A stretch of DNA of 64,000 nt from Deltaproteobacteria bacterium (GTDB taxonomy: Bacteria > Myxococcota_A > Polyangia > HGW-17). The notes beneath the pieces were generated by a model, which worked only from the letters and a program-made list of their open reading frames with translations, searched no databases and was not told where the DNA came from. The stretch spans positions 171,422 to 235,421 of the forward strand of contig JAFGWM010000032.1 of NCBI GenBank assembly GCA_016937155.1, in the 5' to 3' direction. Shown piece after piece: positions 8,304 through 54,765 of this stretch. The translations under genes and the position numbers were made by a program. Each line of letters opens with the position of its first letter. Position 1 is the stretch's first letter.

Positions 8304-8311
8304 AAGGAAAA

Positions 8312-8651
8312 GGATGGCTGTAAGCCGGGTTCTGTTATCTCAGTTAAGAGATGCAGTCATTCATCTTGACCATCTGTTGCCAGATGGTTCATGCGGCTAC
8401 CCGGAGTATAAATACGGGCAGATAAACTCCTTTTCGCCTTGCTTCAGATGGGGTTTACCATGCGTTTTCTGTCACCAGAAAACCGGTGCGCTTTTACCAC
8501 ACCTTTTCACCCTTACCGGAATAAATTCCGGCGGTATATTTTCTGTGGCACTTTCCTTCAGGTTACCCTGACTGGATGTTATCCAGCATCCCGCCCGTGA
8601 AGCCCGGACTTTCCTCTTGAAAAATTTTTTCCAGCGACTGCTACACCATCC
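8312..8651 (-). ncRNA. rnpB: RNase P RNA (bacterial type A-like)
   Basis: Read on the minus strand, the sequence has the RNase P hallmarks. Near the 5' end is GAGGAAAGTCCGGGC (conserved region I), followed by helix P3/P4 context. The 3' end is ACAGAACCCGGCTTA. Terminal helix P1 is visible as GGATGG at the 5' end (complement of 8646-8651) pairing with CCATCC at the 3' end (complement of 8312-8317), extended by TGTA/TACA. The length of about 340 nt is normal. A U-rich stretch follows the 3' end. RNase P RNA removes 5' leaders from pre-tRNAs. It converges on the Tex-like gene with only 8 bases between them. Open frames inside it on the plus strand are not genes. Confidence 0.96.
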
Positions 8652-8662
8652 CTTTCAATTGT

Positions 8663-38605: not shown

Positions 38606-38633
38606 TTGACACCAGTGCGTGCTTCCCTATAAT
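38606..38633 (+). promoter_or_regulatory. Consensus promoter of the str operon (rpsL)
   Basis: A perfect TTGACA (38606-38611) and a perfect TATAAT (38628-38633) are separated by 16 bases, 60 bases before rpsL. Its position after rpoC separates the str operon from rpoBC. It is the best sigma-70 match in the window. Confidence 0.88.
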
Positions 38634-39609: not shown

Positions 39610-39685
39610 CACTTCTCGCCAGGCGCCTTTTGCGAACCTGCGAATGTGTTTACGGGGATCCTTGCGTTTTGAAACGGCAGTTAAT

Positions 39686-41800
39686 ATGAGTGGTAATGAT
39701 TTGAAAAACCAGCAAAGCGGATTCGTCAGTCCATTAAGGGACTGTCCGATTGAAAACGTCCGTAACATTGGAATTATGGCACATATTGATGCTGGTAAGA
39801 CCACTGTAACTGAACGAATACTGTATTATACCGGAGTTACGTACAGAATAGGTGAGGTCCATGAAGGAACTGCCACCATGGACTGGATGGAACAGGAACA
39901 GGAAAGAGGGATCACTATAACAAGTGCTGCCACAACCTGTTACTGGAAAGATCATAGAGTAAACATCATTGATACACCGGGACACGTCGATTTTACAATG
40001 GAAGTCGAAAGATCTCTTAGAGTGCTTGATGGTGGAGTTGTGGTTTTCTGTGCTGTAGCAGGAGTTCAGCCTCAGTCGGAGACGGTATGGAGGCAGGCGG
40101 ATAAATATAAGGTTCCACGTATTGCTTTTATAAACAAGATGGATAGAAATGGTGCTGATTTCGATCGTGCTGTTGCTACTATGAAGTCGCGACTTGGAGC
40201 TAATCCTGTTATTCTGCAGCATCCGATTGGCAGTGAGTCTGAGTTTGAAGGTGTTATTGATATAATTTCAAGAAAAGCACTGATTTGGACCAAGGACATC
40301 ATTGGTGCTTCATATGAAGTACATGAAATTCCGGAAATTTATAAGGAAGTTGTTGAAAAAAGAAGGCTTGAACTCATTGATGCACTGGCTGATGTGGATG
40401 AAGATTTCATGATGCTGGCACTTGAAGAGGATAGTCTTACTGAAGAAGATCTTCGCAATGCTGTGAGGAAAGCTACTTCATCTCTGAAAGTTACACCTGT
40501 TGTTTGTGGTAGTGCATTTAAAAATAAAGGTGTTCAGCCTTTACTGGATAATGTGATCGAGTTTCTTCCTTCTCCGATGGATAGATTTGAAATTCCCGGA
40601 AAAACTGAGGAAGGCGAAGATACAGTATGCAGAGCTGCAGATGATGAGCCTGTGAGTGCTCTGGCCTTCAAAATAATGACAGATCCCTATGTTGGACAAC
40701 TGACATTTATAAGAGTTTACTCCGGTGTTTTGAAATCCGGAGATACAATATATAACTCATCCAGACAGCGAAAGGAACGTATTGGCCGGCTTTTGCGTAT
40801 TCATGCCAATAAACGTGAAGATGTGGATGGAATTGTCGCAGGTAACATCGGAGCCGCAGTAGGATTGAAACTTGCCTCCACCGGTGATACATTATGTGAT
40901 TCAAAATCTCCTATTATACTGGAATCTGTGGATATTCCTGAGACTGTTATTTCTGTTGCTGTGGAACCCAAAAGTACTGCAGATGCTGAAAGACTTGGAG
41001 TTGCCCTCGGTAAATTATCCAGAGAAGATCCCACTTTTAAAGTGCACACAGATGCTGAAACAGGACAGACGATACTTTCCGGGATGGGCGAGCTTCATCT
41101 GGAAATTATTGTGGATCGTCTCACCAGAGAATTCAGAGTTGAATCAAGAGTTGGACAGCCTCAGGTTGCTTACAGAGAGACTCTTGCCCGCAGTGCAACG
41201 AATATTACCGGTAAATTCGTCCGACAGAGTGGAGGACGGGGACAGTACGGTCACGTTGTTATTAATGTGGAGCCTGGTGAACGTGGCAGCGGTTTTGTCT
41301 TTGAATCTGCGATCGTGGGTGGGTCAATTCCAAGAGAATACATACCTGCAGTTGAAAAAGGAGTCGCTCAGGCAATGGATCGCGGAATAAAAAGTGGATT
41401 TCCGATGGTGGATATCAAAGTTATTCTCACTGACGGATCATACCACCCCGTGGATTCTTCTGAGCTTGCTTTTACTGTAGCCGGCTCAATGGCTCTTCAG
41501 GAAGCTGCGTCCAAAGCTGGTGTTATTATTATGGAACCAGTGATGGATGTAGAAATTGTAACACCTGAAGAATACCTTGGTGACGTTCTTGGTGACGTTC
41601 ATTCAAGGCGAGGAAAAGTGCTTGGTTTGGAAAACAGACCAGGTGTTCAGATAATTAATTCAGAAATACCCTTGGCAACAATGTTCGGATATGCTACACA
41701 GCTGAGGTCACTTTCACAGGGTCGTGCGACCTACACCATGCAGTTTGCAAATTATCTGCCGGTGCCACAACATGTGAATGATGAATTAAAAAAGAATTAG
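39686..41800 (+). CDS. fusA: Elongation factor G
   Basis: The translocase EF-G, 704 aa with all five domains. G1 is [10 protein letters not shown]2 is [13 protein letters not shown]3 is DTPGHVDF and G4 is NKMD. Domain IV contains GGRGQYGHV and [12 protein letters not shown]; domain V contains [22 protein letters not shown] 39686 is the start, with about 20 extra residues before the conserved [11 protein letters not shown]. The ribosome binding site is weak. No tuf follows, unlike the usual str operon. Confidence 0.97.
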
Positions 41801-41838: not shown

Positions 41839-42147
41839 ATGCAGATAAGTAGAATCAGAATCAAGTTAAAGGCTTACGATCATAAACTTCTTGATCAGTC
41901 AGCATCGGATATCGTGAATACAGCGAGATCTACCGGCGCCAGGATTGCGGGACCAGTTCCTCTTCCCACAAGAATATCCAGGTACTGTGTTCTCCGTTCA
42001 CCCCATGTTGATAAGAAATCCAGGGAACAATTTGAGATCAGGACTTACAAACGTTTAATCGATATACTCGATTATACTCAGCAGACAGTTGATGCTCTCA
42101 TGAAGCTAGACGTTGCTCCGGGTGTGAACGTTGAGATTAAGACCTGA
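41839..42147 (+). CDS. rpsJ: Ribosomal protein S10
   Basis: The 102-aa S10, also NusE in antitermination. It has [29 protein letters not shown] and [25 protein letters not shown] lies before the ATG. The next gene is rplD, 24 bases on; the rplC gene expected between them is absent. Confidence 0.98.
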
Positions 42148-42171
42148 TAATAGGGTATAGGAGAATTCATT

Positions 42172-42804
42172 ATGCCGAACTTTGATGTATATAATAAAGA
42201 TGGTCAGAAAGTGAGTGAAGTCACTCTGTCCGAAGATATCTTTGGAAGTGAAGTGAAACAGCATGTAATGTGGCTGGTAGTCAAAGGACAACTCGCTGCA
42301 AAAAGAGCTGGTACTCATAAGGCAAAAACCAGAACTGAAGTACGTGGTGGCGGTAAAAAACCCTATAAACAGAAGGGTACCGGTTGGGCCAGACAGGGTT
42401 CTAGTAGAGCTCCAAACCATGTTGGTGGTGGCAGAGCACATGGACCAAAACCGAGAAGTTATGCCCTTTCTATTCCCAAAAGAACTAGAAGGGTTGCTCT
42501 TATTAGTGCACTCAGTCTTAAAGCTTCCGAAAAGAAGATCTACATTATTGATGATCTCAATATGGGAAGTATTAAAACTAAGAATATGGCTGCAATGATT
42601 AGTAATTTTAATGCAAAAAAAGCATTGATCATTGAGTCAAAAGAGAATAAAGAAGTTGTCCTGTCTACGCGAAACCTTGAAAAGCATAAATGGTTACCCC
42701 CAGAAGCTGTCAACGTGTACGACATCCTCAAACACGACACTTTGATTATGAATGTGTCGGTTGCACAGGAACTGGATTCCAGACTTGCAAAACCGGTGAG
42801 GTAA
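42172..42804 (+). CDS. rplD: Ribosomal protein L4
   Basis: L4 lines the exit tunnel and, in E. coli, regulates the S10 operon. This 210-aa protein has the tunnel-loop motif KPYKQKGTGWARQGSSRAPN and the N-terminal NKDGQKVSEVTL start. TAGGAG precedes ATG 42172. It directly follows rpsJ. Confidence 0.96.
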   Translation: MPNFDVYNKDGQKVSEVTLSEDIFGSEVKQHVMWLVVKGQLAAKRAGTHKAKTRTEVRGGGKKPYKQKGTGWARQGSSRAPNHVGGGRAHGPKPRSYALSIPKRTRRVALISALSLKASEKKIYIIDDLNMGSIKTKNMAAMISNFNAKKALIIESKENKEVVLSTRNLEKHKWLPPEAVNVYDILKHDTLIMNVSVAQELDSRLAKPVR

Positions 42805-42808
42805 TAAA

Positions 42809-43114
42809 ATGACTTTTGCAGAAGATATCATTATTCGCCCAATTATGACGGAAAAAGCCGTCAATATGCAGGATAACGAGCGCAAATACGTGTTTGAAGT
42901 ATCCATGGATGCAAATAAAATACAGATTCGTAACGCTGTAGAAAAACTTTTCGATGTAAGTGTTATGGCCGTGAATGTTCAAAGAAACATGGGCCGTTAC
43001 ATTATTAGAAGAGTAAAGCGTTCCAGAGTTATGGGAAAAAAAGCTAACTGGAAGAAAGCAGTTGTGACTTTGAAAGAAGGTCATGAAATTAATTTCTTCA
43101 AAGATGCTATGTAG
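42809..43114 (+). CDS. rplW: Ribosomal protein L23
   Basis: L23 sits at the tunnel exit and docks SRP and trigger factor. The 101-aa protein has IIIRPIMTEKAVNMQD, KYVFEVSMDANKIQIRNAVE and VNVQRNMG. It begins 4 bases after the rplD stop and is translated from a GGTGAGG site. Confidence 0.96.
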   Translation: MTFAEDIIIRPIMTEKAVNMQDNERKYVFEVSMDANKIQIRNAVEKLFDVSVMAVNVQRNMGRYIIRRVKRSRVMGKKANWKKAVVTLKEGHEINFFKDAM

Positions 43115-49955: not shown

Positions 49956-50888
49956 ATGAGCATACTGTCCAGTTTAAAACCAAATAAAGGATCCGTTAAA
50001 AACAATAAAAGACTCGGTCGCGGTCGCGGAAGTGGACGTGGAAGTAGTGCCGGTAAAGGTCTTAAAGGCCAGAAGCAGAGAACTGGTGGCAAAATCAGAC
50101 CTGGTTTTGAAGGTGGTCAGATGCCACTTCATAGAAGAATTCCAAAGAGAGGATTTAATAATCACTTTATGAAAGACTTCTGTGTGGTATCGCTTGAAGA
50201 CCTCTTGAGGGTTCTTCCTGATGGCGGCGAAGTAAATCTTTCAAGCATGGTAGCTGTAGGGCTGGCATCTGAAAGAGATACCCTGCTTAAAATCATCGGA
50301 AATTCTGAGATTAAAGGAAAATATAATATTACTGCTGATAAAGTGACAGAAACCGCCTGGAAACTTATTGAAGAAAAGGGTGGCAATATCACTATTAATC
50401 AGAATGTAAATGAGTATGCCACTGTTACTCTTGGTATGATTTCAAGAAAATTCCCCAAAAAGACAGATGGCCCTGTTAATGTGGATTTTGAAGCAATGAA
50501 ATCTGCTGGACTTATTCCAGAGGGAAAAAGTAAAGTAAGTGTTATCGCTGTAGGTCAACTTGCAGGTAAATATAATATCAGTGCAAATAAAATATCTAGG
50601 GAAGCAACAAAAATTCTTCAGAATAAAGGTTGTAAGGCTATTGTAAGTGACCCTGTGAATTTTTACCGAAAAGTTGATTTTTATGATCTTGAAAAATGGT
50701 ATCCACGGGGTGGACAGGTTACCATAGAAGATCTCCGTACCAGAGGGATTCTCAAAGTTGGTCAGAAAATGAAACTCGCTGGAGATGGCAGAGTAAAAGC
50801 TCCCTATCAGGTCGAGACTCACAAAGTATCCGCAATCGCTCGCAAAAAGCTTGAAGCATTTGGTGGAAAAATCCAGTTATTAGACTAG
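49956..50888 (+). CDS. rplO: Ribosomal protein L15 with triplicated C-terminal domain
   Basis: L15 is a late-assembly 50S protein, normally about 145 aa. The first 65 residues are the usual basic Gly-rich arm (RLGRGRGSGRGSSAGKGLKG, QMPLHRRIPKRGF). After it come three tandem copies of the globular domain: residues about 66-147, 151-232 and 233-310. Matching positions read GKYNITADKVT, GKYNISANKIS and APYQVETHKVS. Each copy has the beta-element after a DLL/MISR/DLE helix, a VNLSSM, VDFEAMKSAGL or TIEDLRTRGI segment, and a closing helix. The frame is uninterrupted and followed by secY, so this is a real 310-aa product unless it is processed. The extra two domains are unexplained. Confidence 0.93.
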   Translation: MSILSSLKPNKGSVKNNKRLGRGRGSGRGSSAGKGLKGQKQRTGGKIRPGFEGGQMPLHRRIPKRGFNNHFMKDFCVVSLEDLLRVLPDGGEVNLSSMVAVGLASERDTLLKIIGNSEIKGKYNITADKVTETAWKLIEEKGGNITINQNVNEYATVTLGMISRKFPKKTDGPVNVDFEAMKSAGLIPEGKSKVSVIAVGQLAGKYNISANKISREATKILQNKGCKAIVSDPVNFYRKVDFYDLEKWYPRGGQVTIEDLRTRGILKVGQKMKLAGDGRVKAPYQVETHKVSAIARKKLEAFGGKIQLLD

Positions 50889-54669: not shown

Positions 54670-54765
54670 TTTTCAATAAATTTAACCCCGATTGCTGTCA
54701 TATACGGGTGCTATTGGGAGTGGATTCCGAGACAGCCGGAAGTGGTTCCCAAGTAGAGGTATTGT

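Follow-up and report, generated by a model that had tools for sequence, protein, structure and literature searches.

Why is rplC, the gene for ribosomal protein L3, missing from between rpsJ and rplD, and where is L3 encoded instead? The gene order rpsJ-rplC-rplD is often regarded as near-universal in bacteria. The stretch analyzed here (the window; 64,000 nucleotides, C76:171422-235421) comes from a 4.1-Mb draft genome in 85 contigs, G000. Only 24 nt separate rpsJ from rplD, and neither open reading frames nor family models place any L3 there; the gap holds nothing but the ribosome binding site of rplD (Table 1). The earlier note had described both the missing rplC and the 24-base gap with its ribosome binding site, and its description was borne out, the absence by open reading frames and NCBIfam models and the gap by direct reading. 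According to the family models, the locus resembles the canonical S10 operon (rpsJ-rplC-rplD-rplW-rplB) in having genes for S10, L4, and L23 in order with EF-G ahead, and differs from it in having rplD directly after rpsJ and no rplC in the window. Promoter-like sites in the window were overall no more numerous than in shuffled sequences (17 found, versus a mean of 19.5), and the site ahead of the str-operon genes is the only one to match the sigma-70 consensus at 12 of 12 positions. This site would drive the str-S10 genes.

Table 1. Features of the window and of the related loci discussed in the text
Feature	Position	Strand	Evidence or loci
tuf (EF-Tu), only full copy in genome	25173..26369 (C76:196594-197790)	+	735 bits
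Perfect 12/12 sigma-70 consensus site, before first str-operon ORF (38694)	38606..38633	+	
fusA (EF-G)	39644..41800	+	ORF; TIGR00484, 1056 bits
rpsJ (S10)	41839..42147	+	ORF; NF001861, 161 bits
rpsJ-rplD junction, usual place of rplC	42148..42171	+	ORFs; same junction in 30 class genomes
rplD (L4)	42172..42804	+	ORF; TIGR03953, 231 bits
rplW (L23)	42809..43114	+	ORF; NF004363, 104 bits
rpsK-rpoA junction, usual place of rpsD	54670..54765	+	ORFs; rpsK ends 54669, rpoA starts 54766
Hairpin of family f29 (candidate leader)	about 60 nt before rplC		L180, L284, L286-L301, and other f29 loci

With PF00297 and TIGR03625 as queries, the entire genome yields no L3 on the window's contig and a single one elsewhere, at C82:44345-44998 on the minus strand. 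Its product is intact (217 amino acids) and aligns over profile positions 1 to 202 of 202 with 272 bits against TIGR03625, above the curated cut-off of 142.9, as expected of a full-length bacterial L3. Loss of L3 is ruled out by this gene. The earlier note had reasoned that L3 must be encoded elsewhere and had proposed a full-genome search for rplC and its neighbors, which led to this gene and to an RlmE-like gene downstream of it. The note had also proposed reading the gap in sister genomes, and had named a deletion or collapse of the assembly at 42147-42172 as the alternative to a real change. The draft state of the genome, in 85 contigs, is the only circumstance that could be set beside such an artefact, in favor of which nothing was found. 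In 30 genomes of the class read at the junction, the S10 and L4 domains lie 5 to 105 nt apart with no L3 between them, so that independent assemblies agree, and another contig of the same genome carries an intact rplC. Since the junction is common to the sister assemblies, a local collapse is excluded, and we regard an assembly artefact as vanishingly improbable. The absence of rplC from the S10 operon is a real rearrangement that is ancient and lineage-wide.

To define the extent of this rearrangement, 39 genomes were covered at the level of the window's own genome, genus, family, order, and class. L3 was found in 37 of these, L4 in 37, and S10 in 36, and neither S10 nor L4 was near rplC at any of the 37 L3 loci. 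A further 60 Myxococcota from outside the class were drawn from 138 L3-positive genomes of a phylum sample (loci L180-L249, minus 8 duplicates, G000, and G058). Neither S10 nor L4 lay beside L3 in 59 of them, and where the S10-L4 junction was read directly (8 of the 60) the gaps were 18 to 138 nt and held no L3. For example, in the single-contig genomes G044 and G119, L3 and L4 are megabases apart. At least 80 named-genome loci matching the L3 alignment served as controls. Among the matches listed, L3 stood directly before L4 at 73 of 80 and S10 directly before L3 at 72 (locus L148 begins at L3, so its S10 side is not included), and rplC stood directly before rplD at all 73 loci from other phyla. 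The seven loci without S10 or L4 nearby among those matches (L100-L103, L105, L107, and L150) are all Myxococcota: five are titled Myxococcales, Myxococcota, or Paraliomyxa, and the other two, titled as a proteobacterium (L105) and an uncultured bacterium (L150), fall among Myxococcota L3s in the L3 tree. In that tree, the L3 of Paraliomyxa miuraensis belongs with f10, one of the families in the window's class. The phylum of the window is thus Myxococcota, and the class is probably GTDB's Polyangia. The move of rplC thus spans almost all Myxococcota read and is not peculiar to the window's lineage.

The lone exception outside the class is G045 (family f22; locus L211, G045:C28), which has S10-L3-L4-L23 in the canonical order in a genome with 6% contamination. 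Its S10-L4-L23 group with those of the Myxococcota genome G039 (support 91), but its L3 falls with those of Thermodesulfobacteriota (93/81). The canonical order in G045 may be the ancestral state, or it may reflect re-acquisition or reversal. In the tree of S10, L4, and L23 together, Myxococcota do not form one clade, and three rows (f30, f32, and f39) fall with the outgroup; such small trees are therefore weak at this depth.

The organization of the S10-spc-alpha cluster was reportedly surveyed by Coenye and Vandamme in 2005. Departure of a ribosomal protein gene from its operon is a known kind of event; the case of L3, its spread, and its rlmE partner were not found in the literature searched, and among open-licence papers none was found to describe a relocated rplC in Myxococcota. 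The phylum is a large-scale exception to an order often treated as fixed, and it means that L3, an essential protein of early 50S assembly, can be balanced without co-expression from the S10 operon. The moved rplC is also a useful marker of Myxococcota ancestry.

At its new site, rplC has a preferred companion within the class. A gene for an RlmE/FtsJ-type methyltransferase is next downstream on the same strand at 35 of 37 class loci, and is not next at the other 2. Outside the class it follows rplC in 19 of 60 Myxococcota and not in 41, and the other neighbors of rplC vary from family to family. Adjacency to rlmE across the phylum accordingly failed as a general rule, and because it is not universal, the moved arrangement does not depend on the pairing. 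The protein of the window's genome scores 161 bits against 24.1 for PF01728, which places it in the FtsJ fold family. Its best NCBIfam match is TIGR00438, over the full length at 180 bits; this is under the cut-off of 300, and the protein is therefore named RlmE-like. It is predicted to be the methyltransferase of U2552 (Um2552) in 23S rRNA. The genome has just one other FtsJ match, on contig C11; its neighbor is an S4-domain match, an arrangement like that of TlyA, and it is probably TlyA. L3 reaches toward the peptidyl-transferase center near the A-loop. According to PMC11194073, the A-loop methylation Um2552 is introduced by RlmE at a late stage of 50S assembly, and among the 23S modification enzymes RlmE is the only one whose loss by itself slows Escherichia coli strongly. 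The rplC-rlmE pair of the window's family is usually continued by two further genes, one with no Pfam match and one read as MutS2 from its sequence. A TsaC/Sua5-type gene lies near rplC-rlmE at nine class loci (e.g., L066, L068, L069, L071, L073, L087, L089, and L095); that of L066 scores 208 bits against TIGR00057.

Promoters were sought as pairs of TTGACA-type and TATAAT-type elements in the 260 nt before rplC, with dinucleotide shuffles for comparison. A sigma-70-like site better than 95% of shuffles (P < 0.05) precedes rplC at 23 of 37 class loci; the other 14 have none below P of 0.05, and 8 of these have no promoter-like site at all. In the window's genome the site is TTGACA/TATTAG, matching at 10 of 12 positions (P = 0.03). 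Because a separate promoter-like site precedes rplC in most class genomes, balance with the S10 operon must be reached differently, as the earlier note had proposed; that proposal holds in spirit. Between rplC and rlmE of the window's genome no terminator-like site was found, and the gap is 178 nt, a length that makes co-transcription of the two genes only plausible. In three genomes of the window's genus and family (G000, G001, and G002; loci L061-L063), a small hairpin was seen by eye downstream of the promoter-like site and ahead of the ribosome binding site of rplC, reading GAAGCC...GGGTTTC in G000.

We consider it highly probable that rplC left the S10 operon early and became an independent unit, in the class usually rplC-rlmE. 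The departure would date from early in the history of Myxococcota, the window's genome having inherited that state, and rpsJ and rplD would have become direct neighbors in the S10 operon; the move would have been made by gain of a second rplC copy followed by loss of the one in the operon. Elsewhere in the genome, rplC would be transcribed from a sigma-70-like promoter of its own, and in the window's class it would normally head an rplC-rlmE unit. L3, a protein of the peptidyl-transferase center, would thereby be produced along with the methyltransferase that completes the neighboring A-loop at U2552. A hypothetical advantage of the pairing is that co-expression would couple two determinants of the peptidyl-transferase/A-loop region. 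The rplC promoter, rather than a place in the S10 operon, would set the supply of L3, perhaps joined in at least one family by a hairpin of the mRNA at the ribosome binding site of rplC.

That family, f29, belongs to the same phylum as the window and to another class. L3 was found in 27 of its 30 genomes, and in 23 of these 27 a hairpin lies directly before rplC, abutting the ribosome binding site and occurring once per genome. Its flanks, CGCGA.G and CCAATCCG, are invariant. Folded singly, all 23 sequences adopt the same plan of stem, internal loop, and stem. Pairing holds in 92.0% of cells, versus 80.3% in shuffled and 17 to 53% in slid controls, and covariation is 0.282 versus 0.098 in shuffled sequences, with none of 500 shuffles as high as the observed value. 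Ahead of a ribosomal protein gene, the hairpin thus shows both a conserved structure and compensatory changes, the combination that marks a ribosomal leader RNA. A model built from the f29 sequences gave 21 matches over 329 genomes of the phylum, 18 of them in f29, each single and 12 to 18 nt before the L3 match; the scores are not independent of the sequences from which the model was built, and the single site per genome is independent of them. The three remaining matches are weak and lie in other families, at loci where a profile search found neither L3 nor any S10-operon gene. Against 100 sources comprising the window's rplC and other L3 loci, the model gave four weak matches (best E value, 0.53), and the window's rplC was unmatched.

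Like the ribosomal leader RNAs treated in PMC7247131, the f29 element is a short covarying hairpin directly before a ribosomal protein gene; unlike them, it is absent from Rfam and has no counterpart in the passage covered of that source's ribosomal leader table, where rplC appears solely with an archaeal L4 leader and no bacterial L3 leader is given. In Rfam, the seven loci searched matched eukaryotic families alone, in three weak hits with E values up to 5, and a simple scan of E. coli 23S rRNA for the loop motif found no copy. Mimicry of rRNA binding sites is common among leader RNAs and not universal. The conserved fold makes the hairpin a candidate autoregulatory leader RNA for L3. Its ligand is likely L3 itself, because rplC is the only ribosomal protein gene downstream, and L3 would then control its own synthesis. 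With a promoter of its own, pairing with rlmE, and a candidate L3 leader RNA in one family, the moved rplC offers a natural test of how ribosomal protein stoichiometry is restored.

Other genes of the region have histories of their own. The earlier note had listed rpsD, infA, and tuf as displaced along with rplC and had concluded that the lineage relocated several genes. For rplC and infA this stands, the single infA of the genome being on C34. It is literally true that tuf is absent after fusA, but tuf did not leave the region: it lies upstream in the window, just downstream of four tRNA genes, and a relocation out of the region is ruled out by this tRNA-tuf locus. The rpsD gene is indeed absent between rpsK and rpoA, but it did not share in the rplC move. 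In G000 it lies at C84:191704-192303 (locus L323) and encodes a zinc-free S4, and the window's family (L323 and L325-L327) has only this type, outside the alpha operon. Most members of the class keep S4 in the alpha operon, as in G009 (L328), where S13-S11-S4-rpoA includes a Cys-rich, zinc-type S4, and in two genomes of the class, G022 and G030, S4 is encoded twice, each time by a full-length gene. The rpsD change is a family-level replacement by zinc-free S4, much younger than the move of rplC, and no single relocation event covers rplC, rpsD, infA, and tuf together. PMC3087516 describes a known class of event in which zinc and non-zinc S4 are exchanged through gene transfer and the copy in the operon is lost; with the rpsD copies seen in the class, a route of displacement is therefore visible there for one ribosomal protein. 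As in that system, an essential ribosomal protein gene here lies outside a conserved operon whose remainder is unperturbed. The S4 exchange involves many phyla and two S4 types, whereas the L3 change spans most of one phylum, and no such description of it was found in the literature searched.

Moved L3s also differ in sequence from canonical ones. In the loop before GSIG, HGxHE occurs in 98 of 103 distinct moved L3s and in 2 of 73 canonical L3s (Auribacterota L127 and Cloacimonas L173). These counts come from a simple pattern, which caught an earlier HG in at least the moved misses L210 and L248 (L210 has THGTHE in the alignment) and mis-caught the canonical row L143 like L210; the other moved misses are L191 and L235, which may be further such cases, and L107, which has HGTSE. 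The L3 of G045, in the canonical position, has no HGxHE loop. Taken together, the loop and the G045 pattern suggest, at the level of sequence, that moved L3 is a distinct type that displaced the operon copy rather than a native copy that was transposed. In this more specific version of the explanation given above, an rplC of a different type, either taken from a different lineage or kept as an ancient duplicate, would have been gained at another position, and the copy in the operon deleted.

Such a displacement falls slightly short of an even chance in our judgment. The one canonical Myxococcota genome lacks the loop and has an L3 that groups with Thermodesulfobacteriota, and the class shows the same path for rpsD, with G022 and G030 having two copies of the S4 gene and family f1 having just the zinc-free S4 outside the operon. 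However, L3 trees of about 210 columns, which used 62 of 188 L3 rows, leave standing not only a clade of moved L3s (AU P = 0.25) but also one that includes G045 (0.14) and one that includes G045 and Thermodesulfobacteriota (0.24). No donor was found, G045 is the genome with the contamination given above, and HGxHE could have arisen by mutation later and become fixed along the phylum's stem. A simple transposition or inversion that carried native rplC out of the operon, with the loop diverging later, has nearly, if not quite, an even chance. Vertical descent is not rejected by the trees, and among the matches listed the L3 of the window's genome is 47 to 55% identical to L3s of Desulfuromonadales. 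On the other hand, transposition predicts neither the clean closure of the junction nor the fixed loop difference, and the S4 precedent favors displacement.

A bolder extension of the displacement reading, which we hold to be unlikely as a whole, is that Myxococcota swapped their native L3 for the HGxHE type and rebuilt its supply as an rplC-rlmE unit, with one family placing it under the first L3-specific autoregulatory leader RNA. The HGxHE loop would then lie in the part of L3 near the peptidyl-transferase center. If true, an essential ribosomal protein of early assembly was exchanged and rewired at the base of a phylum.

Two further features of the window concern other genes. The rplO product (49956-50888) is an L15 of 310 amino acids in which three stretches match TIGR01071, suggesting repeats of the C-terminal domain, and an RNase P RNA of bacterial class A lies at 8305-8654 on the minus strand.
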